A model generated the notes under the pieces. It ran no database searches, was not told the DNA's origin, and saw only the letters and a list, made by a program, of their open reading frames with translations. A program made the translations under genes and the position numbers. Positions 30,466 through 56,318 of a DNA stretch of 64,000 nucleotides are shown here, in pieces. Position 1 is the stretch's first letter. Each line of letters opens with the position of its first letter. This DNA comes from Streptomyces mobaraensis NBRC 13819 = DSM 40847 (lineage in GTDB: Bacteria > Actinomycetota > Actinomycetes > Streptomycetales > Streptomycetaceae), in assembly GCF_017916255.1 (NCBI RefSeq), contig NZ_CP072827.1, positions 3,993,501 to 4,057,500 of the forward strand. Reading direction: 5' to 3'.

Positions 30466-30478
30466 CTGTGCAACCAAG

Positions 30479-30520
30479 TCGGGGTGGCGGGATTTGAACC
30501 CACGACCTCTTCGTCCCGAA
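30479..30520 (-). other. 3' fragment of tRNA-Pro; probable attachment site (att) at the left end of the island
   Basis: On the minus strand the sequence runs from the anticodon loop (TTCGGGA, anticodon CGG) through the 3' anticodon stem, T-arm (GTGGGTTCAAATCCC) and acceptor strand (CCACCCCGA). The 5' half of the tRNA is absent: identity to a Pro tRNA stops exactly at the loop, and unrelated sequence follows. This is the classical core of tyrosine-recombinase sites at tRNA genes; pSAM2-type elements use tRNA-Pro in the same way. The intact copy expected at the other end is not in the window. Confidence 0.85.
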
Positions 30521-30777
30521 TGAGGTTCGGTTGGTGAGGCTGCCAGCCTTGATGGCGTTTCCGCAGGTCAGATGGGTGGGCTCGGTTGGTGTCGCGGGGC
30601 CTGGAAGGGGTTCGGGGAGCAGGTCGGCTCCCAGATGGCTCCCCGGGCGTGGTGCCCACCGGCTGCGTGTAGGTCTATGCCAAGGCATCCCTGTGTCGAC
30701 CACAACGAGGGCCAAGGCTTCCGCGCCCGGCGTACCCTCCGCTGGTGATCGCGCACGCTGTCCGAATGCCTGGAAGC

Positions 30778-32013
30778 TCAGTCCTTCACAATCTCGCCGT
30801 TCGCTGATGACGTTGAAGCCTGCGTCGGCACGTGCCTGGCCTTCGGCTTCTCGAGTTCCAACCGCACTTTCACGTCCTCGAAGCTGAGGTCCGGGGTTCC
30901 GATACGCCCCACCGAGCGGCTGTAGGCGATGAGCATCGCCTCTGAGAACGGGCTGTCGAGGGTTGCGACACGTCGCCAGGTTCGTGCCTCGGCGAGCGGG
31001 ACCGATACCACGTTCTCGAAGTCGACCAAGAGGTCGGGGATGTCGAGGTAGCCAGGAAGAGCGCGGTACCGGTTCTGCTTGTCCCCGAAGACCTGTTTGG
31101 CCTGGTCCTTGTGGCTGTTGCTCTTCGAGCTGGCCAGCCATGTGGCGATCGCTGGCGACTCCGACTCCTCGCCGTCCTCGGTGAAGATGCGGTCAGCCTT
31201 GGCCAGGCGAACGTACTGTGCCTTGGCCTTACGAGGTCTCGCCACGTTGGCGTCCGGGTGGTCCTCATACAGGTCGCAAGCAGGGGTGAGGACGATCCAC
31301 CAATCGCCCTCGGGGCTGACCACGAGGTCCGTGGCGGTGAGGTGATGGGTCACGAACGGCTTCAAGTAGACCCGCGCAGCGGAGGGTTGACCAGCAGTGG
31401 CGACCGCCTCGCCGTCCCCGGCGTATCCCAGTTCGCTGGGGCCGTTCTCCCGGAGCTCGGCCGCGAGGCGGTTGACGATGATCGGGGTGATCTCATGGGG
31501 ATCAGCGCCCGCCATCTCGTGCCAGTGCGGGGCCACGACGTCACGGAGGAAAACGCGGACCTTGCGTTCGACGAGATCGGAGATACGGCGTCTCAACTCC
31601 GACACTCCCGAGAGCAACCCGTCCCGGACTGCGGGAGCGACCTCGTCCCAGGCGTTCTTGGTCACCACACGGATGAGGGGAGGCTTCTCCAGGTCACGCA
31701 CCTGCTGGGGGACAGCTGTGAAGAAGACCACGGGCAGCCACCGAGCGCCGGCGATGGCGTCGTACAGTTCGTGTCCGCGTCCTTCGACGGCAGCGGAGGG
31801 TATGCCATCGGCGGCGTCGCGGACGTCGAGGATGACCAGGTCGAAGTCCTCGTCAATCAACCGCTGCTCGGCTGCGGAGAAGTCCTGCTCGGACTCGAAG
31901 TGGATCTCCCCGAGGTCTGTGAGCTCCTCGGACAGCACTTCGCGAAGGTCCGCGATCATCTGGGCGTCGTCATCGACTATGAGCACCCGATACGCAACGT
32001 CGGTCGACGTCAC
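30778..32013 (-). CDS. Receiver-domain protein with unknown C-terminal domain
   Basis: The 411-residue protein starts at GTG 32013, overlapping the stop of the dual-ATPase gene as GTGA, with AAGGAG 6 nt before. Residues 8-135 are a receiver-like domain: acidic pocket VDDD (14-16), phosphoacceptor Asp63 in LVILDVRDA, Thr99 in VFFTAV and Lys119 in VVTKNAW. No DNA-binding output domain follows. Instead residues ~140-411 form an unrecognised domain with WWIVLTPACDLYED (Cys246) and a basic, Lys-rich middle. As the partner of the upstream kinase-like ATPase it is probably phosphorylated by it. The C-terminal domain may be an effector. Confidence 0.8.
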   Translation of the reverse strand: MTSTDVAYRVLIVDDDAQMIADLREVLSEELTDLGEIHFESEQDFSAAEQRLIDEDFDLVILDVRDAADGIPSAAVEGRGHELYDAIAGARWLPVVFFTAVPQQVRDLEKPPLIRVVTKNAWDEVAPAVRDGLLSGVSELRRRISDLVERKVRVFLRDVVAPHWHEMAGADPHEITPIIVNRLAAELRENGPSELGYAGDGEAVATAGQPSAARVYLKPFVTHHLTATDLVVSPEGDWWIVLTPACDLYEDHPDANVARPRKAKAQYVRLAKADRIFTEDGEESESPAIATWLASSKSNSHKDQAKQVFGDKQNRYRALPGYLDIPDLLVDFENVVSVPLAEARTWRRVATLDSPFSEAMLIAYSRSVGRIGTPDLSFEDVKVRLELEKPKARHVPTQASTSSANGEIVKD

Positions 32014-34250
32014 CCAACTCTCCTTCGCAGTCGTGCCCGGAAACTCGCACCCGAGAGGGTGCCGGGGCTCACCAGCCCCAATTCGCCGTCGTAGAAGTCC
32101 TTCACGACGCTGCCTGCGATGCTGAGACCGAGGCCGACGCCATCCGGCTTTTCACTGAAGTAGGTATCGAAGATCAGGTCCTTGATCTTCTCGCGCACCC
32201 CAGGGCCGTTGTCGCTGACCGTGATGTCGACCACGTCCAGTTCGCCCTCGTGATTGCGCTCCGTCTCGATCAGGATCTCGCGGGGAGTGCCCTTGGGCAT
32301 TGTGGAGAGCCAGTACACGGCGTTGCTCACGAGGTTGACCACAAGGGTCCTGATGTCACCCGGCTCGGCGGTGACGATCACGTCCTCCCCGCTGATCTGT
32401 ACATCTACACCGTGCTTGGTGATCTCCGACTCCAGCACGTCAACGGCTTCGGAAATGCTCTGGTGTAGAGAGAGCCGGCGGGGCCGTCCACGCTTCCGTC
32501 CGCTGAGGGGCTCGATGCGAGTGAAGAGCCGGTCGAGAGCCCTTTCTTGTGCGGTGAAGTCCGTCCGCAGCTTGTCCAGCGCAGCTGACAACTCCACATC
32601 GTGTGTTTCGACCTTTGTGGTGATCTTGCCGAGACGACGAAGGCCCACGCCGATGCGGGAAAGGGCGGTACGTCCGTCGTGGAGGACGACGTCGACCAGG
32701 GTGCCCAGCGTCGCGAGGCGGGAGAACTGGGCGATGACCTCCTGTACCTTGCGTACGCCTTCGTTGATCGTCTCCGTGGCATCCTCGATGGCGCGACTGA
32801 GGATGATGTCCTCTGGGTGCCGCTCGGCAGCCACCTGTCGCAGCGGGTCCAGGTTGAAGTTCTGGAAGAGCCCGTGGCCCCTGCCTTCGGACGGCCCGGC
32901 AAGGAGCGGGGCTTCCGTCGGAGCAGTGGGTTCCCGACGCAGCCGATAGCGTTGCGTCTCCAACCTGGCAATCGCCTGGAGTATGACTGCCTTCAGTTCC
33001 TCGTACTCAGGGGTGTCGATCAGTCCTTCGCGGTGCGAGCGGTCCAGGAGGCCGGGGTTGTCATCGGCCGAGATGTAGACGAATCCCGCCACTTGCCGGT
33101 TGGAGAGACGCAGCGTCGGGTTGTTGATGCGTCGCTGGTCGAAACCAAGCCAGTCGAACCCGGGTTCCCCGAACGGCTGCACACGGAACCCGTCCCGGTA
33201 CAGGGCCACACCGCTGTTGTTCCGGATGAGTTCCCGTACGTCGTTGGTGTTCCTCGCGCTGGTGTCGAGTGCCAGGAGCGGCTTGATGGCCGACGACTCA
33301 AGGTCCCAGACTCGGAAGTCCAGTTTCAGAGGGCCACATGAGGGCCTCTTCGAGTCCTTCCGGAGGTTGTCCTGGACGACCTCCACCGGTTCTTCGTCGC
33401 CGGCGTAAATGGCCAGGCTCGCGTCCCCGTCGGCATCCACGGCGCCGACGAGGCGATAGCGGGGATGGGCCAGTGTCTCACTCGCAGAAACGAACCCGCT
33501 GTGGTGGCGGAGCGGCCCCTCCGGAGTGTCGATGTAGATCGAGAACTCAGGCTGGTCCGGCACAGAGAGCTCGGCGGGAGGCGGCGGGGGGAGGAGCCTG
33601 GACAGGGAACGCTTGAGGGCCTCGATCTCGTTCGTGCCCCAAGCCGTGCGAAGCCTCTCGAGTCGGACCACGGTGCCATGCGCCGTGCCGACGGCTGTAG
33701 CAGGCGCTGACTGAAATTCCCGGAGGACCTCGGAAAAGGTCTGCGCTGCTATGCCTCCGTCTACGAAGATGCTCGGAGTGGTCGTGGACAGGGAGACCGG
33801 AACTTCATCCAGGTACGCGTCACCATCCGTGAAGTCCCCCCAGTCGATGCGAAGGGTGACCTCCTGCTCATCGACCCGCCGAGTCGTGATTGTGGCGGTA
33901 TGGCCAAGTCGAGCCGAGGCGAACCGGCCGATGCCCTTGGCGCCCAGCACGCGACGCCCACCTGACTCACTGCGTGGGTTCCGGTGCCTGTGCGGGGTGG
34001 CGATCTCCATCCACGTGCCGCGCACTGTGGCCGGCGACATGCCGTGCCCGTTGTCCCAGACCTCGATCGAGCCCTCACCCTCTTCGAGGGGAGGGTTGAA
34101 GCGGATCAGGACGAGGCTGGCGTCCGCGTCGTAGGCGTTCTTCACCAGCTCGGTGAGGGCGACGCGTTCGTTGCTGATCAGTTCTTCGCCGAGCGTGCTC
34201 ATGAGCCTGGCCCGCGGCCGGAGATACGCCTTCGCGTTCTCGGAGTCCAC
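32010..34250 (-). CDS. Protein with two GHKL ATPase modules: Hsp90/MORC-like plus histidine-kinase-like
   Basis: The 746-residue protein starts at GTG 34250. The N-terminal GHKL module has ELVKNAYDADA (34-44), DNGHGM (66-71) and GAKGIGRFASARLG (103-116), as in Hsp90, MutL and MORC proteins. A middle part of about 300 residues follows. The C-terminal half is kinase-like: an H-box VVLHDGRTALSRIG with His524, a coiled dimerisation region, N box VVNLVSNAVYWL, SDNGPGV and GVGLGLSIAGSVV. There are no membrane helices. Having both modules in one soluble chain, cotranslated with a receiver protein, suggests a cytosolic two-component switch driven by an Hsp90/MORC-type clamp. The function is inferred; the families are clear. 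Confidence 0.85.
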   Translation of the reverse strand: MDSENAKAYLRPRARLMSTLGEELISNERVALTELVKNAYDADASLVLIRFNPPLEEGEGSIEVWDNGHGMSPATVRGTWMEIATPHRHRNPRSESGGRRVLGAKGIGRFASARLGHTATITTRRVDEQEVTLRIDWGDFTDGDAYLDEVPVSLSTTTPSIFVDGGIAAQTFSEVLREFQSAPATAVGTAHGTVVRLERLRTAWGTNEIEALKRSLSRLLPPPPPAELSVPDQPEFSIYIDTPEGPLRHHSGFVSASETLAHPRYRLVGAVDADGDASLAIYAGDEEPVEVVQDNLRKDSKRPSCGPLKLDFRVWDLESSAIKPLLALDTSARNTNDVRELIRNNSGVALYRDGFRVQPFGEPGFDWLGFDQRRINNPTLRLSNRQVAGFVYISADDNPGLLDRSHREGLIDTPEYEELKAVILQAIARLETQRYRLRREPTAPTEAPLLAGPSEGRGHGLFQNFNLDPLRQVAAERHPEDIILSRAIEDATETINEGVRKVQEVIAQFSRLATLGTLVDVVLHDGRTALSRIGVGLRRLGKITTKVETHDVELSAALDKLRTDFTAQERALDRLFTRIEPLSGRKRGRPRRLSLHQSISEAVDVLESEITKHGVDVQISGEDVIVTAEPGDIRTLVVNLVSNAVYWLSTMPKGTPREILIETERNHEGELDVVDITVSDNGPGVREKIKDLIFDTYFSEKPDGVGLGLSIAGSVVKDFYDGELGLVSPGTLSGASFRARLRRRVG

Positions 34251-34671
34251 CCATGCCCCCGCTCGTCAACTGTCAGCCATGTTCTGCAGTGTGTGGCGGG
34301 CAAGATTCTACTAACTACCCATCAGCGAGCTAGGTGGGCGGCTCTCGTAAGTGGCCGAAACCGTGCACAGGTTCAGGCCGACTCGAACGTGTCTTCAGCC
34401 CCGCCGGATCGTTGACTAGCTTGTCCGGCCAATCCGGGCCCCGGGAGCGACGCTGTCACTGCTGTCCTCTACGATTGCCTCTGGTAACGCACCAGAACGT
34501 CGGTTCGAAGCCGAGGACTGGGGGGCCGCGCGGACTCGCGCCGGTACCCGGCAGAGCGCAGCATCGGTCTCACGGGATTTCCGGAGGTCAGCGTGGTGGA
34601 ATCCTTGCCTCCACCAGCGCGTCTGTGATCTCCTGGTGCTCGTTGTTCTCGCTGGTGTGGAGGTGCGTGCT
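34251..34671. other. Divergent promoter region between the dual-ATPase and methyltransferase genes
   Basis: No gene is seen in 421 bases. On the minus strand TAGAAT (34305-34310) could be the -10 element for the dual-ATPase operon. On the plus strand TACGAT near 34469 is a possible -10 toward the methyltransferase. Neither has a good -35. Base composition is less GC-rich than in the flanking core genome. Confidence 0.4.
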
Positions 34672-36639
34672 GTGCAGGAGTCGCACTATGGCGTACCCCT
34701 GGAACGGAGCGACTATCTCAAGCTCCCGCGGCACCGGCACAGCTGCAGGCCCGAGCGGTTCGCAAAGTGGCTCGAAGGGTACGGCAAGGGGCGTCGCCTC
34801 GCCGTGGACCTCTTCTCCGGAGCAGGCGGTCTGAGTCTTGGGCTTCAGCGAGCTGGCTGGACCACTGCAGCCGCTGTCGACTTCGACGAGCGTGCCCTTG
34901 AGACCCATGCGGCCAACTTCCCCGGCATGAGTCTGCACATGGACCTGGGGAACCCAGCCGAGCGTGACAGGCTCGAGGAGCTGCTGGAGCCGGCGAAGGG
35001 GGAGATCGATCTGGTGGCGGGGGGCCCGCCGTGCCAGCCGTTCAGCAGGGCTGGGCGGAGCAAGATCCGCCACCTCGTAGAGCACCATGGCCGCGACCCT
35101 CACGACCTCCGTAAAGAGCTGTGGAGCGCGTACCTGGACGTCATAAAGAGGATCAGGCCGCGCGCCGTCCTCATGGAGAACGTCCCGGACATGGGCCTCG
35201 GCGACGACTTCTTCGTGGTCCGCGTGATCGAGCAGCAGCTCGAGGAGCTCGGCTACGCAACCCAGGTACGCCTTGTCGACGCATGGCGCTACGGAGTACC
35301 CCAGCACCGGAAGCGGCTCATCCTTCTGGCCAGGAACGACATCGAGAGGTTCGAGTGGCAGCAGGAGGTCGCCGAGGACGAACGCACCACCCTGCGCCAC
35401 GCCATTGGTGACCTCCCTCCCCTCACCGTGGTGCCCACGGAGCGTGTCGGCGAGCGTGAGATGGCCTACGGCACCCCCTCCGAAGATCTGTCCGACTTTG
35501 CCAGGGAGATGCGCAAGCGCGCGAAGCGTGAGGTCGTCTTCGACCACATGACCCGGAGGGTCAGGCCGGACGACTGGGTGATCTTCGACAGCATGGACTC
35601 CGACACCCTGTACTCGGACATCGACCCGGAGCTCCAGCGGTACAGCGCCGAGCACTTCACCGACAAGTACAAGAAGCTTGACTGGGACGACCTGAGCAGG
35701 TCGATCACCGCCCACATCGCCAAGGACGGCTACTGGTACATCCATCCGGACCAGAACCGCACCCTGACCGTTCGGGAGGCGGCACGGGTACAGACCTTCC
35801 CGGACCGGTTCAGGTTCGCTGGGACGCGTAGTGACGCCTTCCGGCAGATCGGCAACGCGGTGCCACCCCTCCTGGGCAAGGCCGCCGCGGAAGTGCTGTT
35901 GCCTGTCGAGGGGTGCCAGGCCGGGGAAGGCGGACTCCAGCCCCGCTGGCGCACGGCCCGCGAGGACCTGACTGCCTGGGCGGAACGGCAGCGCAACGGG
36001 GAGAACTGGTACCAGTTGCCCAAGCTGTCGTCAGTGCACGCGGCGGTCGTGGCGGTGTTGGCGGGAACCCGGGTGCAGCCTGGTCAGATGCACGAGATGC
36101 TCGAGACGATCCGGGAGCACGCGACTCTGACCAAGTCTGCTCTGCGCACTCTCCTTGAATCAGCCCCCACGGCAGCCGTTCGGGCGCGGCTCGACAGGCT
36201 GACCGCCGTGGCCGGCAAGTCAAGTGTCTGGTCCGAGGACGAGGAGAAGCAGAAGGAGCTGCCCAAGCGCCTGGGGATGAAGCCAGCCGAGGGCGCGCTC
36301 TACCGGCTGCTGATCGATGACGACCTTCTGTGGGTGGGACAGAGTGCGCTGCGCGTCGCTGCCCGGCTGCACGACAGCGACTCTGACCGCACCAACCGGC
36401 TCAGTGACGGCCGGGTGCACTTGGTGAAGCTCGTCGGTGCAGGAGAAAAGGCCCCCCTGCGCATGGCTGCGCTACGACTCATCGGAAGCACCCTGTGCAA
36501 CGCGAAGAATCCTCTCTGTGACCAGTGTCCTCTCAGTAGCTACTGCGCGGGCAGGGAAAGTGCTGCGGGTGACCTGGTCACGGATGCTCTGAGTGGGACG
36601 CACGGTCGGCAGCCTGTTCCTGCCCAGTCACGCGAGTAG
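34672..36639 (+). CDS. C5 cytosine DNA methyltransferase with C-terminal EndoIII-like Fe-S cluster segment
   Basis: The 655-residue protein starts at GTG 34672, 8 nt after GGAGG. Methylase motifs are all present: I AVDLFSGAGGLSLGL, IV GGPPCQPFSRAG (catalytic Cys121), VI MENVPDM, VIII PQHRKRLILLA, IX TLTVREAARVQTFP, X QIGNAVPPLLG. It would make 5-methylcytosine in a specific site. The C-terminal ~230 residues are extra. They end in Cys609-x6-Cys616-x2-Cys619-x5-Cys625, exactly the spacing of the endonuclease III/MutY [4Fe-4S] loop, after a helical stretch resembling the HhH-GPD fold without its catalytic Lys and Asp. The last 62 bp overlap the end of the convergent vsr gene. Confidence 0.92.
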   Translation: MQESHYGVPLERSDYLKLPRHRHSCRPERFAKWLEGYGKGRRLAVDLFSGAGGLSLGLQRAGWTTAAAVDFDERALETHAANFPGMSLHMDLGNPAERDRLEELLEPAKGEIDLVAGGPPCQPFSRAGRSKIRHLVEHHGRDPHDLRKELWSAYLDVIKRIRPRAVLMENVPDMGLGDDFFVVRVIEQQLEELGYATQVRLVDAWRYGVPQHRKRLILLARNDIERFEWQQEVAEDERTTLRHAIGDLPPLTVVPTERVGEREMAYGTPSEDLSDFAREMRKRAKREVVFDHMTRRVRPDDWVIFDSMDSDTLYSDIDPELQRYSAEHFTDKYKKLDWDDLSRSITAHIAKDGYWYIHPDQNRTLTVREAARVQTFPDRFRFAGTRSDAFRQIGNAVPPLLGKAAAEVLLPVEGCQAGEGGLQPRWRTAREDLTAWAERQRNGENWYQLPKLSSVHAAVVAVLAGTRVQPGQMHEMLETIREHATLTKSALRTLLESAPTAAVRARLDRLTAVAGKSSVWSEDEEKQKELPKRLGMKPAEGALYRLLIDDDLLWVGQSALRVAARLHDSDSDRTNRLSDGRVHLVKLVGAGEKAPLRMAALRLIGSTLCNAKNPLCDQCPLSSYCAGRESAAGDLVTDALSGTHGRQPVPAQSRE

Positions 36640-37075
36640 GAGCCGGACACCGCTCGGCAACCATGAGTGCTGCCGCCGCTGGACTGGCCTTGACCTCGCA
36701 CTCCCAGACCCGGAGCACGGTCCATCCGGCGGCCTCCGCTGCTTCCGTGTTGCGTCTGTCTCGGGCCCTGTTGGTCTCGATCTTGTCCGTCCAACGCTCG
36801 GCGTTCGGTCCGCGGAACACCTTGGGGCCGTGCTTCGGGCAGCCGTGCCAGAAGCAGCCGTCAACAAAGACGGCCACGTGGTATCTGGGAAGCACGAAGT
36901 CGGCCGTGCACCTGGGAGCCACCCTCTGGTGAAGGCGGAACCTGAGGCCCAGCCGGTGCACCGCCTTCCTGAGGGCTACCTCCGGCCTGGTGTCCCTCAC
37001 GCGCCGGCCGCGAAGGTGCTCACCCTCCGGAGTGGCGACCCACCCACGGTCCGGCGTCAGCCCTCCTCCACTCAT
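36578..37075 (-). CDS. vsr: Very-short-patch repair endonuclease (Vsr)
   Basis: The 165-residue protein is read from ATG 37075; earlier in-frame starts (37081, 37132) would reach the start of the gene on the other strand. Family motifs: DTRPEVALRKAVHRLGLRFR, CTADFVLPRYHVAVFVDGCF with the metal-binding Asp, HGCPKHGP as the zinc/His part, and NRARDRRNTEAAEAAGWTVL. Vsr nicks 5' of T in T:G mismatches that arise by deamination of 5-methylcytosine, so it fits with the adjacent methylase. The genes are convergent and overlap by 62 bp. Confidence 0.93.
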   Translation of the reverse strand: MSGGGLTPDRGWVATPEGEHLRGRRVRDTRPEVALRKAVHRLGLRFRLHQRVAPRCTADFVLPRYHVAVFVDGCFWHGCPKHGPKVFRGPNAERWTDKIETNRARDRRNTEAAEAAGWTVLRVWECEVKASPAAAALMVAERCPAPTRVTGQEQAADRASHSEHP

Positions 37076-37130
37076 GACCACATTCCCAGTCTGTAGACGT
37101 CCTCGACTCGGAGGGTGCCACACTCTTCCC

Positions 37131-37319
37131 ATGCTCCGGGAACCAGCCGAACTCCATGTCGATGATCAGGGTCGGGTCGAGCTGCCGCTCGGCCTGCTGG
37201 CGGAGGCCGGCATCGCACCGGGCTCCGATCTCGTCGCCTTCAGTGACGGTGACGGACGGATTGTCCTGAGGCGGGCCGAGGACGCTGTCAGGGACCTGGT
37301 CGAGAAGGGCATGCTCTGA
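37131..37319 (+). CDS. Small SpoVT/AbrB-like DNA-binding protein
   Basis: The 62-residue protein (ATG 37131) has the swapped-hairpin AbrB pattern: ELHVDDQGRVELPLGLLAEA, then GIAPGSDLVAFSDGDGRIVL. An acidic/basic tail EDAVRDLVEKGML follows, typical of antitoxin or regulator forms. It is divergent from vsr and convergent with the AIPR gene. It may regulate the defence genes, or be an antitoxin-like component. No toxin partner is next to it. The ribosome site is distant (GGAGGG about 16 nt), so expression may be leaderless. Confidence 0.75.
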   Translation: MLREPAELHVDDQGRVELPLGLLAEAGIAPGSDLVAFSDGDGRIVLRRAEDAVRDLVEKGML

Positions 37320-37347
37320 CCGAGGACTCAGGATCTGCGTGGTCCCA

Positions 37348-39357
37348 TCACTGAGCAGGAGTGAACCCCAGGCGCAGAGCCTCGCTACGCGCGTGAAGGG
37401 CCTGGAGTGCTTGTGTCTCGGGCACCTCTTGGCCGTTCTCCATCCGTCTCCCGACGGACTGGGCCAGCTGCCTCTGCCAGGGTTCGAGGTTGTGCGTCTC
37501 CTTGGCCCACCGCTCCAGTGCGTACCACTCGCCGGTTGGCACAACCAGGAGTTCCTCGACCGCCCCCTCGGCGTCCGGGCTGCCGCCGGCCAGTGCTGCT
37601 TCGTCCAGGGGCAGGTCCAGGAGCTCGGCCGCCAAGGCATCGGGGACCGTCCAGCGCACTCGTGAAACGGCGTCCCAACACCCCGCCTTCTTGGCCCACT
37701 CGCCCACGTGGTTGCCCTCCAGCGGGCTCGTCACCGCCTCCATGACGCGGGGGCACAGATCGTCCACCGCGGCTTCCAGGGCGGCGGAGATCCCCTGCTC
37801 ACGCCAGATCCGGTCAAGGTCGATCCGCTGCTCGGTGGCCAGGGACAGTCTCGCCATGGTGTACGTCGTCACAAGGCTCTTGTGACTGCCCGCCCCATGG
37901 CCGGCGGCAACCTGGTCCACGGCCTTGAACAGGATCGCCATTGCGATCACCCGCTGGCAGTACTGGATGTCGACACGCGGTGGCGCCTCGTCGATACGCA
38001 GCATGAACTCGACAAAGTTCTTTTGTGCGCCCCGACTCACCAGGTGGGGCAGCTGGATCCACGAGTGGACGAACTTCGCCAGATCGGCCTTGGTGAACCT
38101 CTTCTTCGTCGGATTGATCCTCTTGAACTGGCGTTGCCGGGCAGGCGTACGGGCTTTGGCAAGCTCGTCCGTGTACTGGCCGCGTGCCCGCTCGTAGAAC
38201 CAGTGCGTCTCCTGACCACTGCCGTCGGCCGCGGGAGCCCAGAGGGAACGGGTGATCCGCTGGATCGCCACGTGATACTCGTGGTTCGAGCTGAAGTCGA
38301 CCTGCGTCACCCGGTTCTGCGTGTTCGAGTACTCCGAGATCTTGGGAACAATCTCGGTGAGACGCTCGGGCGAGACCTCCGTCAACTTCATCTGGACCCG
38401 GACCTGGGACAAGTCGGCCTTGTCCCGTGACCGGGCATAGTGGAGTGACGCCGTGGTCTGCCCGCCGTTGACGATCTGGAGGCCGTGTACGCGGGAGATG
38501 TGGGTCGGCTCTCCGTCCGGGCCCGTCACGAAGTCGACCTGGGAGGCCGTTGCCGTGATCCCGTTGTTGTAGGCCAGGAAGCGGCCGGGCGCGTGCAACA
38601 GGGTCTCCCGGATGCCTCGGTTCACGGAACCACGGGCCTGCAGGAACGAACGCACATTGAGTTCGAGAAGCCGTGTCCCGTGCTCCGCGTACAGCTCCGC
38701 CAGCAACTCTCCGGGTATCACAGCGAGCACGACGGAATGGTCCCGCTCCGAACTCGGAGCGGAAACGCAGGGCAGCGGAGGCGTGAAGGGAACCACGATG
38801 GGCTCGCTGAGCGATCCCGACGTCTCGTGACGGTGCAGCCGCGCCAGGTCCCACACCTCGTGGACGACCGGGAGGCCGTCGAAGTGGGTGGGCGGGACCT
38901 CCACGGTCGTGGCGACACGGTTGCTGAGGAGGAAGAGCCTGATCCTCTGCACCTCGGTCAGGGCCTTCTCGACCGCCTCGCACATGTCGTACACGTCGAA
39001 GGACTCGTCAATATGTTGCTGCAGGCCCTCCTGGCAACGACGCGCGAAGGTCAACAGCCGTTTGAACGAGGTGTCGGCCTGGGCCTTGGTGAGTTTCGTC
39101 TCCAGCGGTGCTAGGTGGAAGTCGGTGAGGAAGAGGTCCAAGGACTCACCCGCCTCTCCAATGCCGTACGCATGGACCTCGTGACCGTGGGCCTTGTGGT
39201 ACGCGCTGAAGGTGTTGGAGACGACGCCGGCCTTCTCCAGGTCGAACAGGACCCTGTGTGTGAACGCCTCCGGAGTTGTCGTTCCCTCGGCGTCCGCGGT
39301 CGCCTGAACGTCAGCGACGAGGCTCCGGGAGTACTCGGCCAGGTCCTGCTCACTCAT
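37348..39357 (-). CDS. AIPR (abortive infection phage resistance) family protein
   Basis: The 669-residue protein has the AIPR hallmark motifs RFLAYNNGITATA (259-271) and LQIVNGGQTTASLHYA (293-308). The following helical region has VPKISEYSNTQNRVTQVDF. The N-terminal ~130 residues include SLDLFLTDF strands resembling a degenerate nuclease-like fold. AIPR proteins occur in phage-defence loci; the biochemical activity is not settled. ATG 39357 overlaps the PD-(D/E)XK gene's stop by 8 nt and has GGGGGAG 4 nt before. It is last in the operon MORC-Z1-PD-(D/E)XK-AIPR. Confidence 0.9.
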   Translation of the reverse strand: MSEQDLAEYSRSLVADVQATADAEGTTTPEAFTHRVLFDLEKAGVVSNTFSAYHKAHGHEVHAYGIGEAGESLDLFLTDFHLAPLETKLTKAQADTSFKRLLTFARRCQEGLQQHIDESFDVYDMCEAVEKALTEVQRIRLFLLSNRVATTVEVPPTHFDGLPVVHEVWDLARLHRHETSGSLSEPIVVPFTPPLPCVSAPSSERDHSVVLAVIPGELLAELYAEHGTRLLELNVRSFLQARGSVNRGIRETLLHAPGRFLAYNNGITATASQVDFVTGPDGEPTHISRVHGLQIVNGGQTTASLHYARSRDKADLSQVRVQMKLTEVSPERLTEIVPKISEYSNTQNRVTQVDFSSNHEYHVAIQRITRSLWAPAADGSGQETHWFYERARGQYTDELAKARTPARQRQFKRINPTKKRFTKADLAKFVHSWIQLPHLVSRGAQKNFVEFMLRIDEAPPRVDIQYCQRVIAMAILFKAVDQVAAGHGAGSHKSLVTTYTMARLSLATEQRIDLDRIWREQGISAALEAAVDDLCPRVMEAVTSPLEGNHVGEWAKKAGCWDAVSRVRWTVPDALAAELLDLPLDEAALAGGSPDAEGAVEELLVVPTGEWYALERWAKETHNLEPWQRQLAQSVGRRMENGQEVPETQALQALHARSEALRLGFTPAQ

Positions 39358-40360
39358 GGGCTCCCCCGATCAACATGCTCACATCGTCGACTGACGCCAG
39401 GTAGCTGTCCAACCCCGAGACGGTCACGTGGTAGGTGCAGTCGCTGACGCCCTCGGGAAGGTCCGACTCGACAAGCCTGGGAAAGCCATCCCGAACGTGC
39501 CAGAAGCGCAGGTCACGAACGGTGTAACGAGGTTCGTCATAGAGATCGTGATGCCCGGGCAGGTAACCTGCCTGGATCAGCAGGCCGTCGAATCGGGCCC
39601 TGGCAGCAGCGCTGGCAAGGTGCCCCCGGACGCTCTCCACACGACGGTTAAGGCTCTCGCCGGACCCACCCCGTCGTTCGTCGAGCACCATCATGCACAG
39701 CAGCAGGTGCGGGACACCGGTGTCGTCCAGCTGTCGCTCACTCGCTATGCGGACGCTGCGGGGGTGTTTCGCGGCACTGGCCTTGACCTCGATCGCGACC
39801 CCAGGGAGCTGGAAGTCTTGGTTGGCGCCTGTCGGTCCCGTCCAGGACTCCACAGCCTCGATCTCGGACAGGGTGCTCAGGAGGTGGTCACCAAGCACCA
39901 GAAGTTCCCCGTAGAGTCCCCTCCGCGCCTCCGCTCCCAGCCCGTCCGTGCCAACCGTGCGCAGGAGATCCTGCCAGCGCTCGAACCTGCTCACGGTGGC
40001 TGTCAGAGCGTCGGCAGCGGCCGGCGCTGAACGCGCGGTGTCGGCCACGTCGGTCACGAGTGGGTTGAACACTTCCCGGAGGTCGTTCGCCGTGAGGACC
40101 AACTGGAGTTCGTACTCGAGACGGGACACCGCACTCAGCTGCATCTCGATGCCGGCCGCCCGGGGCAGTCGCCCAACCGAACGCACGATGTGGTCTGCCG
40201 AGCGGGCGTCGGCCCTGAGTACCAGCATGCGCTGTCCCCCCGGATGGGCGACGGAGAGGAACACGTCCAGCGGGGAGTCCGGATGCAACCGACGGCTGGA
40301 GCGTCCTGGCGAGTCGTGAGGGCGCTCAAGCTCGTGCCAGTCCTCCTCGGTGACCGTCAC
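39350..40360 (-). CDS. DUF4420/PD-(D/E)XK motif protein, predicted nuclease
   Basis: The 336-residue protein starts at GTG 40360, in a GTGA overlap with the Z1 gene. The nuclease signature is QDFQLPGVAIEVKAS: Asp182 and Glu191-Val-Lys193. A preceding conserved Glu152 lies in RRGLYGELLVL, as in DUF4420 family proteins. About 130 N-terminal residues form an alpha/beta region (HPDSPLDVFLSVAHPGGQRM). It is predicted to cut DNA together with the Z1 protein, with which it is strictly coupled here. Catalysis is inferred from the motif. Confidence 0.87.
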   Translation of the reverse strand: MTVTEEDWHELERPHDSPGRSSRRLHPDSPLDVFLSVAHPGGQRMLVLRADARSADHIVRSVGRLPRAAGIEMQLSAVSRLEYELQLVLTANDLREVFNPLVTDVADTARSAPAAADALTATVSRFERWQDLLRTVGTDGLGAEARRGLYGELLVLGDHLLSTLSEIEAVESWTGPTGANQDFQLPGVAIEVKASAAKHPRSVRIASERQLDDTGVPHLLLCMMVLDERRGGSGESLNRRVESVRGHLASAAARARFDGLLIQAGYLPGHHDLYDEPRYTVRDLRFWHVRDGFPRLVESDLPEGVSDCTYHVTVSGLDSYLASVDDVSMLIGGAHE

Positions 40361-43128
40361 GCCTCGTCCTCCTCGTCGAGGGCGTAGATGTCCTCCTGCA
40401 GGTAGATGCTGTTCGCCACGTACTCGGTCTTCGACTGGTTACGGGAGTAGGGAAAGCTCACCTGGAAGCCCACCAGCGGCAGCTCCGGGGAGTCGTCCTC
40501 GGGTCCTGGTACTTCGATGGGATAGATGAGTAGCAGCGCTTGGTCGGGACGTCGCTGACGACGGAGGTACGGACCCGACGGGTGCTTCGGGACCGAGGTC
40601 TTCTCCTTCTGCTTCGCTGCTTTCCCAGCGGCCTCCCGTGCCGCCTCAAGCTGTGCTTCGTTGAGGTCGAGGCCCTCGTCGCGCGGGCTGAGCACACGAC
40701 GGATCGTGTACCGCCCCTCTGTTCTGAACTCCGGGTTGAGCGGGGCACGCGTAACTGGTCCGACCGAGTGCCCGGCGACGTCCACGGGAGTGGCCGCCGA
40801 CTTGCCTACCAGGCAGACGGTCCAGTTACCCAGCTCACCCACCTTGGCACACTGTTCGATGTACTTTGCGATGAGTCGGGGACGGACCCTCTGGGCCATG
40901 CGGTCGGTCTCGTAGGAGGCCACGAACTCGGAGACCACTTCCGGCGGTACCCCCCGCCACATCACCGTGCCGCCGCTGACAGCTGTTTCGGGTTCCGTGA
41001 TGCCGTCGAGGTGCCGCACCAGGTCCTCGAGCGACTTGAAGTTACGCTTCACAGCTCGGTCGGCAAGGTTGAAGATCACCGTCTCCGGCCCCTCGCCGGA
41101 GTAACTGAGCAGGATCCTCTCACTCTGCCTCATCTTGTTCGCCGCAGTGACCATGAGCCCCAGCGACGACGAGCGGACCTTCAGACCGAACTGCCGGGGT
41201 GTAAGACCGAGCGTGGCCATCTCCTCGACCTCGCGGCGCAGTTCGTCGGTCGCAGCCGTGACCTCCACGTAGGCGTCCTCGACGGCAGGCGTGGTGTACA
41301 GCCTGCACAGGTCCTCGTACCCGGGTCGGTACCCGAACCACCTGCCCATCTGGAGCAGCGTGTCGTACGTGTTGGCCCAGCGCAGGTAGTAACTGACCGT
41401 GAGCCCTGAAAGCGTGAGGCCCCGGGACAGCTTCTGGCCGCCGATGGCGATGACAGAGAGGCCGTCCTTGCGGTTGTCGTAGTAGTCGAGAGCGTCCCGG
41501 GAAGTGCCGTTCACCGCCTTGACCTGGATCTTCCTGATCGCGTCCAGAAGCTCCGTCGACACCTGCTCCCAGGTCAGAGGTTCAGCCTCGTCAGCCGGGA
41601 AGTGCGCGGTGGTGGTAACGAAGTCGCGCTCCCAGAGTTCCTGGAACTCCGCAAGAAGTTTCGGCCCTTTCCCGTACCGGTCACGCAGCGAGTCCACAAG
41701 GAAGTGCAGGTGGTCCTCCACCTGTTCGCGAACAAGGCTCTGCACAGCCGTGAACCGGGTCACGTGCACCAACATGGAGTTGTGCACCCTTACCTGGCCC
41801 CTGGCCCGGCGAGCCGCGCACGAGAGCACGAACGACGCAACAGCCTCACGTAGAGACCGAGGGAGATCCCCACGGGGCCTGTCGCCGGCCTTGTGCCGGC
41901 TCGGCAACCAGCTGTCGGAGTCGTTCACGTGACGCACCAGCGGCAACGGATGCACGTCCTCCTCATCCTCGTCATCCACCTGGAGTCCGAACACCCGCTC
42001 CGGGCCGAGATAGTTCGAGGGCGAGGGGAGGCTGCGGATGAAGCTCTCCGGGAAGAGATCTCCGCCCACCTCGTCGTGGTCTGCATCGGGGTCGATGTAG
42101 ATGTTGGCGAACGGGGTGGCCGTGTACCCGACGTACGCCACCCTGTCGAAACTGTTGATGAGGTCTCGGATCGCCCTGTTTGTCCTGGTGGGGTCGTCGT
42201 CAGGATCGCGGACCGTGTTGATCGACGCGTTGTCGGCCTCGTCGTCGATGACCAGGAGCGGAACGTCGCGCACGATCTTGCGGCCGTTCTCGCCCTCGGT
42301 GCCCTGCACGTCGGTCACCCACCTGCGCAGGTACTCGAGAATCTTCCAGTGCTTCTTGACGACGAGCACGACAGGAAAGCTGCCGAGCGGAAAGTTGATC
42401 GTGGCTGCGGCCTGGCGTCCGAAGTCCCCCTTCTCGGAGCTGTTCGTCGGAGACGCGATGTCGAGCTTCTTGCCCTGCAGCGGCATGAGTCCAGCACCGA
42501 TGGTGCGGGAGTCCCCGTTCTCGTTGGAGCGCATCTGGTGCTGGGTGTCGAAGCCCAGCAGGCCCTCGTCTATGCGCAGTTGCGTCTGGCTCCGGAGGTC
42601 GTTGTGGATGCCGGCGAGAACAACGACGAGCTTGTAGCCCGCGTCAACCGCCTTGGAAGCGAGTCCGATGTACTGTCCAGTCTTGCCTGACTGCACCTGG
42701 CCGATCACGAGCCCCTTGCGGCGCCAGGGGCCAGGCCGCCGCGGATCCTCCAGTTGGCTCAAGACCTCGTCCGAGGTCTGGTCCAGCCGTCGCACGACCG
42801 AAAGCGGCAGGTCCTCGACATCCTCGAGGAACCAGCGGTATCGCTCCCAGAAATCCCAGGAACGGTTGTTCTTCGCCTCAGGCAGCCAGGGCTCGTGCCC
42901 CTTGGGGTCAACAAGTCCCAGGGAACGCTCCTGGAACACCGTGATCATGGCCTCGATCTCCTTGGCCAGCTGGTCCCGGTCCAGAGTTTCCCCCTGTGCG
43001 GCCAGCATGCCGAAGATCGCGTTGACCGCGATCTGCACCTCGTCCGGGCTGGGCTGCCGGTCCTGTGGCAGGAAGCTGCGTACCAACCGCATTGCCTTTG
43101 CGAGGGGTTCGTCGGGGGTGGAGCTCAC
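40357..43128 (-). CDS. Z1-domain SF2 helicase-like ATPase
   Basis: The 923-residue protein starts at GTG 43128 with GGAGG 6 nt before. Helicase-like motifs: Walker A GQVQSGKT (143-150), motif II IDDEAD (294-299), motif III-like YVGYTATPFANIYI (332-345). The Z1 region follows with KLSRGLTLSGLTVSYYLR and MGRWFGYRPGYEDLCRLY as motifs V and VI. Z1 proteins occur in restriction-like clusters with MORC-type ATPases and methylases. It would translocate on or remodel DNA for the nuclease. It is the largest gene of the operon. Confidence 0.93.
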   Translation of the reverse strand: MSSTPDEPLAKAMRLVRSFLPQDRQPSPDEVQIAVNAIFGMLAAQGETLDRDQLAKEIEAMITVFQERSLGLVDPKGHEPWLPEAKNNRSWDFWERYRWFLEDVEDLPLSVVRRLDQTSDEVLSQLEDPRRPGPWRRKGLVIGQVQSGKTGQYIGLASKAVDAGYKLVVVLAGIHNDLRSQTQLRIDEGLLGFDTQHQMRSNENGDSRTIGAGLMPLQGKKLDIASPTNSSEKGDFGRQAAATINFPLGSFPVVLVVKKHWKILEYLRRWVTDVQGTEGENGRKIVRDVPLLVIDDEADNASINTVRDPDDDPTRTNRAIRDLINSFDRVAYVGYTATPFANIYIDPDADHDEVGGDLFPESFIRSLPSPSNYLGPERVFGLQVDDEDEEDVHPLPLVRHVNDSDSWLPSRHKAGDRPRGDLPRSLREAVASFVLSCAARRARGQVRVHNSMLVHVTRFTAVQSLVREQVEDHLHFLVDSLRDRYGKGPKLLAEFQELWERDFVTTTAHFPADEAEPLTWEQVSTELLDAIRKIQVKAVNGTSRDALDYYDNRKDGLSVIAIGGQKLSRGLTLSGLTVSYYLRWANTYDTLLQMGRWFGYRPGYEDLCRLYTTPAVEDAYVEVTAATDELRREVEEMATLGLTPRQFGLKVRSSSLGLMVTAANKMRQSERILLSYSGEGPETVIFNLADRAVKRNFKSLEDLVRHLDGITEPETAVSGGTVMWRGVPPEVVSEFVASYETDRMAQRVRPRLIAKYIEQCAKVGELGNWTVCLVGKSAATPVDVAGHSVGPVTRAPLNPEFRTEGRYTIRRVLSPRDEGLDLNEAQLEAAREAAGKAAKQKEKTSVPKHPSGPYLRRQRRPDQALLLIYPIEVPGPEDDSPELPLVGFQVSFPYSRNQSKTEYVANSIYLQEDIYALDEEDEA

Positions 43129-43191
43129 GGGGAACCTCCAACTGGTCTGAGACGGTATGGAGCAGAGTATGTGGGACCACCGACAACAGGC

Positions 43192-44667
43192 TCAGGTACT
43201 CCAGAACCCCTGTAGCTGGTCGAAGGGAGACATGGTGCGCAGCCGTTCGCGCGCTGCAGCAGGCGAACGGCCACCCGAGACAAGGGACTCGTAGATGCGC
43301 TGTGCGACCTCGGTCGCAGTCTCGTCAGCGGGACCCGCCCCGCCGAAGGGATCGGGATCGTCGCTGGTGTCGGTCTCGTGCATCACACGGAGTGTGGCGA
43401 CGGGTACCGTCTCCTCCAGGAGACGGATCAGAGCACGGACGTCAGCGGGGTTCGCGCCTCCCTGCCTCAGCGTGGCCTGGACCAGCGGATGACTGCGGTT
43501 GATCCGGCAGGTGAGCCGGCCGTCCGCACGACGTACGTTCCAGACGTACACCAGGGGATCGCCGTGTGTACGTGCGGCGACCTGGCCGCGGTGTCGCAGC
43601 ACCTCTGCGGCCCTCGTGCGGGCCTGACGTGCGATGCGATGAAGGTGGGGTCGTAGGCTGACAGGCGGGACGACGCTGGACTTTCGCACGTCTACTCCCC
43701 ACTCGGCATCTGATCCAGCCGGGATGTCGACAGAGATGCGAGCGAGGTTGTACTTCTCCTCGCGACGCATCCCGCGCTGCCCCAACCAGTCCCCCGCAAG
43801 AATCAGACGGTTGCGCCGGTACACGTAGAAGCCCTGCTGATCAAGCCATCCCTGCGGTCCTGCCGCTTGGCTGAACTCATCAGGGGTCAGGCGGTGGGCG
43901 CTCGGGAGGACGAACGCTTCGACCCTCACTGATCCGTTACCCAGGGGAAGTTCCTCGGCAGGCAGCCGCTGGACCGAGGGATGAGCAGTCATGAAGGGGT
44001 CCCAGGGCTGTACGGCGGTTCCTGAAACCCTTAGAGCGCGTCGCCGGGTTCCCACGAGGAACCGTGCGAAGACCATGCCGAGATGCGCCTCGGTGCGTGT
44101 CGCCTCGGCGTAGAACTGCTTCTGGGTACGCTCGTCGTCCTCGGTGACAGCGGCGGTGTGATAGCCGTTGAGCCGACGCCACAGCACCACCGTGCCATGG
44201 CCGCCGCAAGGCCGGACTCTCTGGAGAATGGCGGCGGTGTCCTGGTCGGCCCCGTGGAGCAACCGCCACTCGCCGTACTTCTCGACCACGTCGAGGTCCC
44301 ACGTGCGCGTGTGCCACTGGCCGTCGCAGGCTGTCGCCACGGTGAGCTGTCTCGCCTGCGAGAACGACGCGGACTTCAGACCGACCCCGAACCGCCCCAG
44401 ATCAGTGGGCGAGCGAGGCGTTGCCGGTCCTCGCGCCGCCACGGTCATGGCCGTGACGAGTTCCTCCTGGCTCATGCCGTCGCCATCGTCCACGACCGCG
44501 ATCCAGGAGTCGCTTCCCGCCCAGGCGAACTCGACGTCGATGTTCTGTGCCTTCGCGGAGATGCTGTTGTCGACGAGATCGGCAATCGCTGCCGGCAGCG
44601 AGTAGCCCAGCGAGCTCAGCGAGGCGACCATCCCGGCGGGCTCGGGAGCGGCGATGTCGTACGTCAT
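43192..44667 (-). CDS. MORC/MutL-type GHKL ATPase
   Basis: The 491-residue protein is read from ATG 44667 (MTYDIAAPEP); GTG 44685, six residues earlier, is the alternative. GHKL motifs are N box AIADLVDNSISAKA (27-40), G1 VVDDGDGMS (59-66) and G2 GRFGVGLKSASFSQ (91-104). This form is typical of prokaryotic MORC/MutL-like ATPases in restriction clusters. A transducer-like middle and a helical C-terminus follow; no endonuclease motif of MutL is seen. It is first in the operon, 63 bp before the Z1 gene. It would clamp DNA in an ATP-dependent way. Confidence 0.9.
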   Translation of the reverse strand: MTYDIAAPEPAGMVASLSSLGYSLPAAIADLVDNSISAKAQNIDVEFAWAGSDSWIAVVDDGDGMSQEELVTAMTVAARGPATPRSPTDLGRFGVGLKSASFSQARQLTVATACDGQWHTRTWDLDVVEKYGEWRLLHGADQDTAAILQRVRPCGGHGTVVLWRRLNGYHTAAVTEDDERTQKQFYAEATRTEAHLGMVFARFLVGTRRRALRVSGTAVQPWDPFMTAHPSVQRLPAEELPLGNGSVRVEAFVLPSAHRLTPDEFSQAAGPQGWLDQQGFYVYRRNRLILAGDWLGQRGMRREEKYNLARISVDIPAGSDAEWGVDVRKSSVVPPVSLRPHLHRIARQARTRAAEVLRHRGQVAARTHGDPLVYVWNVRRADGRLTCRINRSHPLVQATLRQGGANPADVRALIRLLEETVPVATLRVMHETDTSDDPDPFGGAGPADETATEVAQRIYESLVSGGRSPAAARERLRTMSPFDQLQGFWST

Positions 44668-45165
44668 GTGTGGTCCCAGTCCCACTTCTCCCCGGGACCC
44701 TTGGTCGGTGCACAGCTGTCCCGGAGAGCCAGAGGCACCAGGCGGACAGAGACCGCAACTGGAACACGCCTGCCAGGCCGGTCACGCAGGGCTCCCCCAC
44801 CCGCCGCTAATGGTACTGGCACGGAGGAACAGGACCTCCGTATGTCCGCAGCCAGGAGCAGTCGTTGTGCTGCAGCTTGGGAGCGGCATGGTGCAGGCGC
44901 CCCGAGGCTGGCTTCGCGTCCGCTTCAGCTACTCCCGCGTCCCGGCCATCGCTCGGAAGTACCAGAGCGCGTTCGGGCTGTGTTTCTAGACCCGCGCCTC
45001 GGCGGTCCGCCGGATACCTGTGCCATGGGGCGGCCAGACCGGAACGAGACGAGAGCGGCGATGGCAATCGTCAGCGCAGCCAGGCGTGCAAGCGACTGAT
45101 GTGAATGGGCCAAGGGCAGGGTTACGGTGGGGTAGTAGGTCGCTGACAACTACTTGGAGCCGCCC
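44668..45165. other. Gene-free promoter region of the MORC-Z1 operon
   Basis: These ~500 bases hold the upstream region of the divergent MORC operon and of the gene at 45166. No ORF with coding-like composition is found. I cannot point to a good promoter. Near the right end GGTAGTAGGTCG precedes the plus-strand gene. Confidence 0.45.
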
Positions 45166-45816
45166 GTGATTCCGGTCGTGGACATAGAGGTTGATCCCAG
45201 CTTTCCTGCCAATGTGGCGTTAGGTCTGCCACCTGAGGACGAGATTGATGAAGAGGGATACGGGTTCTTTCGGGGAGTGTGGGACATCGGCGATGTGAGC
45301 CACGAGGAAGCCGTCGCCATGGTCAAGGAGGAGCGACACCTCTCCAACCTGGGCGACCGTGCCGCGCTGACCCACGTTGACTTCGAGGCAATCGCGAACG
45401 CGTTGGAGTCAAACGACCCGGACAGCCTGCCAGCAGGCTTTGTCGCCGAGCATCCCGAGAGTGAGATCGTCGAACTCGTCGGGGACGGCTATACCGCCGA
45501 ACCACTTCTCGGCTCCCTTGAACTCGGCGTGGCGGGCCTCTCGTATGCCCTTACATCGATTGGCTGCTTCACTGCAGCAAGCTGCCGGAGCCACCTGTCC
45601 GATCAGTCATGGTCTCCGCGGCCGGTTGTCTACTTCGCAGCGGAGCGCCCGACCGTCCACTGGCTGACACCGTTGGTCCGCGACACAGGATGCGGTTTCG
45701 GCGACGGCAGTAGCCACGGACGGTTGTTGATCGTGGAAGCGCCGTCGATCACGAACTTCATGGACTTGGCCAGCCACATACTGAGGCAGGTGGAGCGGCA
45801 GTCCCCGCGTGCGTAG
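45166..45816 (+). CDS. Hypothetical protein
   Basis: The 216-residue protein is read from GTG 45166, 6 nt after GGAG; a TTG at 45154 is possible. It is acidic in the N-terminal half, with EEAVAMVKEERHLSNLGDRA helices. It has a Cys-containing segment GCFTAASCRSHLSDQ followed by PVVYFAAERPTVHWLTPLV. I do not recognise the family. It is divergent from the MORC operon and convergent with the serine hydrolase gene. Membership in the defence system is possible but unsupported. Confidence 0.65.
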   Translation: MIPVVDIEVDPSFPANVALGLPPEDEIDEEGYGFFRGVWDIGDVSHEEAVAMVKEERHLSNLGDRAALTHVDFEAIANALESNDPDSLPAGFVAEHPESEIVELVGDGYTAEPLLGSLELGVAGLSYALTSIGCFTAASCRSHLSDQSWSPRPVVYFAAERPTVHWLTPLVRDTGCGFGDGSSHGRLLIVEAPSITNFMDLASHILRQVERQSPRA

Positions 45817-47017: not shown

Positions 47018-47080
47018 CCTGGCAGTCTTGCAGCCCTCTTCACCGAGATCGGCTCGTCCGCGGTGGTCAGGCGGTTGACA

Positions 47081-49499: not shown

Positions 49500-49535
49500 A
49501 CGCAGAGCCGCAGCTCACCGTGCCGCCCAATGACC

Positions 49536-49578: not shown

Positions 49579-49584
49579 CATGAC

Positions 49585-49608: not shown

Positions 49609-49631
49609 ACCCGAAAAGGAAGGAGCACGAG

Positions 49632-54581: not shown

Positions 54582-56318
54582 TCAGCGCCGACGGCTGGCG
54601 TCGTTCACTGCGCTCGGGGGCGACTGCCTGGTGGGCGCAGAGAGCCCTTGGCGGCGACTGCCTCGGGCGGGTGTGTCGTGGGGGCTTTCGGGCAGGGCGG
54701 ACAGGTGCGCGCTGCGTCGCAGCCGCCAGACGAGGACGTCGCTGATGGAGGCTGCGGAGTCGAGTTCGCGCCGTCGGGCAGCGTCAGTCAGCAGGGCGGC
54801 CGGGTCGTGGCCGGCTCTGCGGGCGTCGTCGAGGGTAGCAGCCAGGGCGGGCCACCCTGCCTCGGCCCGGATCCGTTCGGCCAGCTCCGGCAGCACCTGA
54901 TGGAGAAGACCGGCTTGCCGCTGCCGAACACGCGGGGCCATACGGCGGCCCCGCTGGCCGAGTGCGGCCATAGGCTCACCTGCGGCGGCCTGGTAAGCGG
55001 CGCGCAGGTGTTCGGCGGCTTGCCGGGCGGCCTGGGCCTGCTGGCTGTGGTGCTTCTTCGCGTGCCAGTTCGCCGCGGCGATGGCGAAGAAGAACGCCAT
55101 ATCGATGAGCATGGCGGTGGTGGCGCCATCTTCCCCTCGGCCCAGGGCGGGCCCGCTGCGGACGAGATCGCGAGCGGCCTGGCGCAGGGCACGGTCGCGC
55201 CCGCGTACAGCCTTCACGTGGGAACGGCTCGCCCGCTCGAACACGAAGGCGACCTCGCGGAGTTCAGCGCGTGTATGGGCGGCGGAGGTCTTGGCCAGCG
55301 CGTCCAGGACCTCGCCCGCAGCGGCGATCTGCGCCGCTGCCGCGCCGTCGTCACCGTTATCGATGATCAGCAGCGCCTGCCAGGTAGCGGCGGTGGCCCG
55401 GCGCCGCGCGAACGCGGGACCTGTCACGTCCGGCAGGACCGGCTGCTCCGGCCGCGAACCGTCCGCCGAGGCTGCGGCCTCCGCGGGCAGGGTCCAGCGT
55501 TCGCGGATGCGGGGCAGGGACAGATCGGGTGCGAGCGTGGAGCCCGCGTAGTACACCGGCTCTTTCTCACCGTTGCGGTCATCGGGCAGCGCGACCTTGT
55601 AACCGAGCAGGTCACCGGAGGGCACGACGCGCTTGCGGATCAGCAGGCCGGCGGCGGCCAGCCGGTCGAAGAACTCTTCTTCGCTACCGGCGCCGGCGAC
55701 CGCTCGCCGTACTGTCTCCCGCAGCTCCTCGCGTGCAGGACGCTGCCTGCCCGTGCGTTCGGCCTTGTGCCGCTCGGCGCTGGTGGCCCGCTTGGCGGCG
55801 GTGCCGTCCCCGGGCGCGATCTGGTGCAGGCCGAGTCCCTTTTCGATCAGGCGGCACTCGGCCTGGGCGCGTTTGCCGGAGCGGTGGTGGTTGGGGCGGC
55901 GGCCGTCCTCGCGGACGAGGGTGGCGATGATGTGGATGTGGTCGTCGGCGTGCCGGACGGCTGCCCAGCGGCAGCCGGCCCCCTCGCCAGGGTCGATACC
56001 GGTGGCAGCGACCATACGGCGGGCGATATCGCCCCACTGCTCGTCGGACAGGATCGGGTCGTCTGGAGCGGCGCGCACCGAGCAGTGCCAGACGTGCTTG
56101 TCGGGACGCTGGTCAAGGTCGAGCAGTGACAGGGGCTGGTCGAGGAGATGCTGGAGGTCCCTCTTCGTGACCGAGGGGTCGCGGCCGGGGTCGGGGGCCA
56201 TGCCGTCGAAGGAAGCGACCAGGTGCGGGTCGATGTGCTCCTCGTGGGTGCCCTTGCCGTACAGGTAGTGCAGGAGCCCGACGGTGTTGCTGCCCTGCTG
56301 GTGGATCCGGGGGATCAA
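54582..56318 (-). CDS. Relaxase (mobilisation nuclease)
   Basis: The 578-residue protein starts at TTG 56318, which overlaps the mobC stop as TTGA. Residues 1-130 are the relaxase domain, with a VGLLHYLYGKG start and the metal-binding three-His motif in WAAVRHADDHIHIIATLV. The remaining helical Ala/Arg-rich part has DNA-contact and coiled regions (e.g. ATWQALLIIDNGDDGAAAAQ). It nicks oriT and leads the strand into the recipient. oriT should lie upstream of mobC or between 56939 and 58500. Confidence 0.9.
   Translation of the reverse strand: MIPRIHQQGSNTVGLLHYLYGKGTHEEHIDPHLVASFDGMAPDPGRDPSVTKRDLQHLLDQPLSLLDLDQRPDKHVWHCSVRAAPDDPILSDEQWGDIARRMVAATGIDPGEGAGCRWAAVRHADDHIHIIATLVREDGRRPNHHRSGKRAQAECRLIEKGLGLHQIAPGDGTAAKRATSAERHKAERTGRQRPAREELRETVRRAVAGAGSEEEFFDRLAAAGLLIRKRVVPSGDLLGYKVALPDDRNGEKEPVYYAGSTLAPDLSLPRIRERWTLPAEAAASADGSRPEQPVLPDVTGPAFARRRATAATWQALLIIDNGDDGAAAAQIAAAGEVLDALAKTSAAHTRAELREVAFVFERASRSHVKAVRGRDRALRQAARDLVRSGPALGRGEDGATTAMLIDMAFFFAIAAANWHAKKHHSQQAQAARQAAEHLRAAYQAAAGEPMAALGQRGRRMAPRVRQRQAGLLHQVLPELAERIRAEAGWPALAATLDDARRAGHDPAALLTDAARRRELDSAASISDVLVWRLRRSAHLSALPESPHDTPARGSRRQGLSAPTRQSPPSAVNDASRRR

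Follow-up and report, generated by a model that had tools for sequence, protein, structure and literature searches.

In a 64,000-nucleotide stretch of the 7.57-Mb chromosome of Streptomyces mobaraensis NBRC 13819 = DSM 40847 (NZ_CP072827.1, positions 3,993,501 to 4,057,500), here called the window, nine clustered genes join a known type of restriction system to a phosphorelay-linked, toxin-fold regulator on a mobile island. A histidine-kinase-like protein and a receiver protein (the pair) lie next to a cytosine C5 methylase, the repair endonuclease Vsr, an AbrB/MazE-type protein and an MzaB-C-D-E operon (Mza). A first-pass annotation of this DNA was correct about the genes and their positions, about the GTGA coupling of the pair and about the tight overlaps among mzaC, mzaD and mzaE. 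In window coordinates, the genes and their main parts are the following.

30778..32013, minus strand: response-regulator-like protein of 411 residues, with REC domain, helical linker and MazF-fold C-terminal domain
31609..32013, minus strand: REC domain (residues 1-135) with D14/D15, phospho-acceptor D63, T99 and K119
30895..31353, minus strand: output domain (residues 221-373) of the MazF/Kid/CcdB fold; C246, in a TPxCD motif, is invariant
32010..34250, minus strand: dual-GHKL histidine-kinase-like protein of 746 residues
33828..34166, minus strand: N-terminal MORC/Hsp90-like GHKL ATPase of the kinase (HATPase_c_3, residues 29-141), probably the part that acts as sensor
32679..32681, minus strand: His524 in the DHp helix of the kinase, predicted phospho-donor, invariant in 59 of 59 aligned kinases
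32025..32360, minus strand: C-terminal kinase ATPase (HATPase_c, residues 631-742)
34636..36639, plus strand: C5 cytosine methylase whose additional C-terminal part ends in a 4Fe-4S cysteine motif like that of endonuclease III
36578..37132, minus strand: Vsr very-short-patch repair endonuclease (start inferred)
~37131..37319, plus strand: AbrB/MazE-type small DNA-binding protein (start inferred)
37348..39357, minus strand: MzaE-like AIPR protein
39350..40360, minus strand: MzaD-like PD-(D/E)XK protein (DUF4420)
40357..43128, minus strand: mzaC
43192..44685, minus strand: MzaB-like MORC/MutL-type ATPase

The kinase and receiver genes overlap via GTGA, and the mzaC/mzaD/mzaE neighbors overlap by 4 and 8 nucleotides. 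The methylase gene is divergent from the kinase gene, the upstream region being common to both, and convergent with vsr. The kinase comprises an N-terminal HATPase_c_3 domain, a DHp part with the conserved histidine and a C-terminal HATPase_c domain; both ATPases are found in all 59 aligned kinases, and the closest relative comes from Streptomyces bacillaris (96%). In a named collection of 79 kinase loci, a receiver-sized gene directly follows the kinase in 69, and a C5 methylase or Vsr match occurs in 60. A Pfam scan found no DNA-binding output domain in the receiver, and a second REC protein, as in the Detocs-type buffer protein, was not found among the ten window proteins scanned.

The four operon proteins are called MzaB, MzaC, MzaD and MzaE by NCBIfam (6e-219 to 7e-43). 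The MZA system reportedly goes back to Gao 2020, as MzaABCDE. Here the MzaB-C-D-E homologues are encoded in MZA order on one strand. The window differs from MZA in that all four scores stay below the NCBIfam equivalog cut-offs (434/850, 729/1500, 147/420 and 396/1050 bits), in the absence of an MzaA sigma factor among the ten window proteins scanned with PADLOC and NCBIfam, and in the additional C5 methylase, Vsr, AbrB-type protein and pair. No solved relatives of MzaC or MzaE were retrieved by PDB sequence search at E<=0.01. In Streptomyces Mza loci the AbrB/MazE-type gene is conserved with and without the pair, and 20 of 20 pair-less Mza stretches (L126-L145) contain a C5 methylase match. 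In several Mza loci (L130, L132-L135, L150 and L151) DISARM-type DrmA and DrmB genes adjoin mzaB, as called by PADLOC on L132 and by similarity to L132 elsewhere; such loci often hold a conserved protein of ~515 residues to which neither PADLOC nor Pfam gives a match.

The pair and Mza are recurrently linked. Among 392 Streptomyces genomes, the MzaB-C-D-E set is present in 30 and the full-length kinase in nine. Co-occurrence elsewhere had been set beforehand as the point on which the proposed association could fail, and it was found: all nine kinase genomes belong to the 30 with Mza, and further cases occur outside Streptomyces, in an archaeon, Bacteroidota and Fibrobacter, and on plasmids. 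The Fisher p value for this linkage is 2.6e-11; it becomes 4.6e-9 with near-identical genomes merged and 4.9e-9 when three distant Mza-less dual-GHKL proteins are counted against it (kinship is ignored in all three). The kinase gene and mzaC share one contig, 8-17 kb apart, in eight of the nine genomes and lie on separate contigs in G043; the receiver gene adjoins the kinase in eight. In the 79-locus collection, MzaB and MzaC are within reach of ten kinases: six from Streptomycetaceae (some coinciding with genomes of the 392-genome set), one from an archaeon of the Methanoregulaceae, where MzaE was not found, one each from Xanthocytophaga and Rufibacter, and one from a Fibrobacter metagenome-assembled genome (MAG). 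The full pair and Mza set is also carried by two plasmids, of Hymenobacter and Agrobacterium; the plasmid matches considered were 25 of 33 for MzaC, 31 for MzaB and 60 of 67 for the kinase. Three kinase lineages, 33-45% identical to one another, accompany Mza in Streptomyces, while their MzaC proteins are closer (60-82%, pairs compared), which suggests that pair and Mza came together at least three times in this genus.

The pair is also found away from Mza. A phylum-wide kinase search (E<=1e-50) returned two of 396 genomes, the source genome and G646; the latter has Vsr, the C5 methylase and the pair, and no Mza match within the 19.5 kb examined. Among 109 neighbor proteins of Mza-less pair loci are HpaII, HaeIII and XhoI enzymes (one each), Mrr_cat (two), Eco57I (two), N6/N4 methylases (nine) and HhH-GPD proteins (five), with transposase domains equally common (25 of 145 families listed). 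Since a C5 methylase or Vsr accompanies most kinases and the nucleases vary where Mza is missing, C5 modification is the usual partner of the pair, and the cutting part beside it looks exchangeable.

The gene block belongs to an island delimited by tRNA-Pro sequences, with these further features.

30478..30520, minus strand: last 43 bases of a tRNA-Pro, left attachment site of the island and left limit of the block common with G006
54582..56318, minus strand: MobA/VirD2-type relaxase
61378..62907, plus strand: tyrosine integrase

The 43-base piece is identical to positions 33-75 of an intact tRNA-Pro(CGG) located 1.7 kb beyond the right end of the window. As integrase and relaxase lie between the tRNA-Pro copies, the block rides as cargo on a probably mobilisable integrative element of ~35 kb that sits in tRNA-Pro. 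Within the window, the block has a G+C content of 0.651, against 0.727 on the left and 0.696 on the right. Positions 30478-45806 are present in G006 at 98.9% identity with the same tRNA piece at the left end; outside this block, a single further similar stretch (0.9 kb, 77%) was found in the 19.5 kb compared, so that G006 shares pair and Mza as a single unit. G152 has no pair; its similarity covers the Mza part at 79% and the flank 45900-51797 at 82%. An identical 22-base tRNA-Pro piece is located near the pair-less Mza loci L131, L145, L156 and L167. In the island integrase, a LacI-type helix-turn-helix (residues 302-344) separates the central part from the catalytic one.

A structure search with the full-length model of the receiver was filled by REC domains, and its C-terminal domain was hence predicted separately. 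Its predicted structure has the MazF/Kid/CcdB fold, and it is this model that places the domain with MazF/PemK-type toxins. It also shares with MazF a GD[IL] motif at the start of the barrel, and it differs from these toxins in its sequence profile, its invariant cysteine, its fusion to REC and the replacement of an arginine-proline (RP) motif. Profile-profile comparison with 30 PemK/MazF homologues of Streptomycetaceae did not establish sequence homology. The AbrB/MazE-like gene, considered as a candidate antitoxin of the receiver, was put aside because it lies near mzaE and is retained in pair-less Streptomyces Mza loci. In one genome this gene is found directly upstream of the kinase and not beside mzaE (L067 9550-9729 / L151 15495-15674).

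We tentatively favor a reading that is possible rather than probable: the pair would be linked with C5 restriction as an arm for suicide or dormancy, Mza being one cutting arm among several. Suicide or dormancy is meant here as in PMC3506569. The observed basis is the composition of the locus, the conserved phosphorelay residues, the predicted fold, the recurrent linkage and the sharing of the whole block by two genomes. From the predicted model, the MazF-shaped end of the receiver suggests a backup cell shutdown on infection. The signal, the phosphotransfer, the toxicity, the chemistry and any contact with Mza are steps that we infer. The MORC-like clamp fused to the histidine kinase would sense unmarked or uncut DNA, and the kinase would then phosphorylate the receiver protein. 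The MazF-fold domain, with its invariant cysteine and a chemistry presumably unlike that of MazF, would shut the cell down; the toxin would be held back by its own REC domain rather than by an antitoxin. The adjoining restriction part would be exchangeable: MzaBCDE here, and elsewhere type II enzymes or versions flanked by DrmAB. That C5 restriction systems across bacteria and archaea carry such a phosphorelay suicide switch, composed of MORC-like clamp-kinase, MazF-fold receiver with REC-restrained toxin and exchangeable restriction part, is a broader proposal which we regard as somewhat doubtful.

Several results weigh against the suicide-arm reading. The likeness to MazF is that of a predicted structure: PF02452 (PemK_toxin) is unmatched in Pfam at E<=10, the domain profile, searched against PDB sequences, gave chance-level matches and no toxin, and hhalign against the MazF profile yielded a probability of 2.4% and a P of 0.007 (seven control comparisons, 0.15-0.92). 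The arginine before strand 2 is catalytic in MazF. By sequence-pattern mapping rather than superposition, the receiver family has mostly W/Y/F where MazF homologues have RP before strand 2, which makes RNase activity of the MazF kind doubtful. No antitoxin was recognized adjoining the receiver, and the gene at 29710-30228, which flanks the receiver opposite the kinase, is unmatched in Pfam. The linkage is also incomplete. No such pair is present in 21 of the 30 Streptomyces Mza loci, several of which have DrmA and DrmB instead or additionally, and among the matches listed no such kinase is seen in 19 of the 21 plasmid records that carry both MzaB and MzaC. Dual-GHKL proteins of G088, G281, G214 and G646 lie away from Mza, and no receiver gene was found next to the G149 kinase.

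The first-pass annotation, whose interpretation is partly supported, had proposed that restriction is gated by phosphorelay. The phosphorylated receiver would bind and license (or restrain) the Mza nuclease or methylase, and the barrel would be a protein or nucleic-acid binder and not a toxin. That the pair is repeatedly linked with Mza and with other C5 systems stands in its favor, as do the divergent kinase and methylase genes with their common upstream region and the unconserved position of the MazF catalytic arginine. Given the many Mza loci that lack the pair and the unrelated restriction enzymes near Mza-less pairs, a specific contact with Mza would need many re-inventions; we consider gating rather unlikely and prefer the suicide arm.

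The pair (with methylase and Vsr) and Mza could also be separate defense units, co-located through a common tRNA-Pro integration hotspot. The terminal location of the block in a tRNA-Pro element, the 22-base piece near four pair-less Mza loci, the DrmA/DrmB genes that likewise crowd beside Mza and the frequency of both pairs without Mza and Mza without the pair agree with this explanation. It is nevertheless unlikely in view of the association repeated in other phyla and on plasmids and of the nine full-length Streptomyces kinases, all in Mza genomes and eight on the same contig, even though three dual-GHKL proteins of greater distance fall outside this pattern. A role in expression control appears improbable. 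The pair would sense the methylation state and tune the expression of the methylase and restriction genes, like control proteins during establishment in a new host. Control of restriction-modification (R-M) by the pair is suggested in PMC8011034, and divergent transcription of kinase and methylase and the AbrB-like regulator within the locus are in line with it. The receiver, with no detected DNA-binding output domain and a predicted MazF-like fold, is not.

In Detocs, the receiver is reportedly fused to its effector, a nucleotide-cleaving domain. The window differs from Detocs in that no buffer protein (DtcB) was found, in its MazF-like output and in its tie to C5 restriction. Detocs is a phage-defense system in which a kinase acts via a response regulator (PMC11728103), and the window pair would resemble it in this. 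An R-M-associated two-component pair with no known output domain was published in 2021, HEF_HK/Response_reg_2 (PMC8011034). Like the window pair, it consists of a HATPase_c_3, DHp and HATPase_c kinase adjoining a REC protein, has the conserved His and Asp and lies beside a C5 methylase and Vsr. The window kinase and receiver have zero matches to PF19191 and PF19192 at E<=10, and neither the Mza link nor the MazF-like output is described in the available part of that paper. Just four of 59 aligned kinases and two of 68 aligned receivers match these models at E<=0.01. The predicted toxin-fold domain behind the receiver would be a concrete output for this R-M-associated pair. If the suicide-arm reading is true, the pair would follow the PrrC principle, coupling abortive infection to restriction, in a phosphorelay form that is perhaps antitoxin-free. 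Through the recurrent link, the pair could provide the MzaBCDE restriction system with a sensor-effector arm, in a Streptomyces background that is easy to culture.

For the putative defense system type II (PMC9523054), the main text mentions neither a histidine kinase nor a response regulator nor Vsr, and it states that few of the type II systems have mzaA. In the accessible portion of the paper on MORC/paraMORC restriction operons (PMC2292703), the second GHKL protein is not described as a kinase, and a receiver protein is likewise not described. CglI/NgoAVII has a PLD/B3 nuclease subunit, and no MORC, AIPR or kinase is described in the available part of PMC4267653.

At its C terminus the methylase carries ~240 additional residues, which include a 4Fe-4S cysteine motif of the endonuclease-III type at residues ~595-642 (EndIII_4Fe-2S, 0.0014, slightly below the cut-off; mutY model, 8.6e-5). 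A methylase with a fused HhH glycosylase acting on deaminated 5-methylcytosine, adjoining Vsr, is possible. The Streptomyces loci L162, L163 and L164 encode another, distant type of dual-GHKL kinase that is not linked to Mza, with both ATPase domains in all three; in L164 the gene is followed by that of a 238-residue protein that resembles a short REC by eye and has no Pfam match. In L115, an uncultured Cenarchaeum MAG, four dual-GHKL-like matches extend over ~10 kb of an archaeal contig. Of the 67 plasmid records that have a dual-GHKL match, 41 are from Campylobacter; among the matches listed, these plasmids are ~50-75 kb long and encode a protein ~28% identical.
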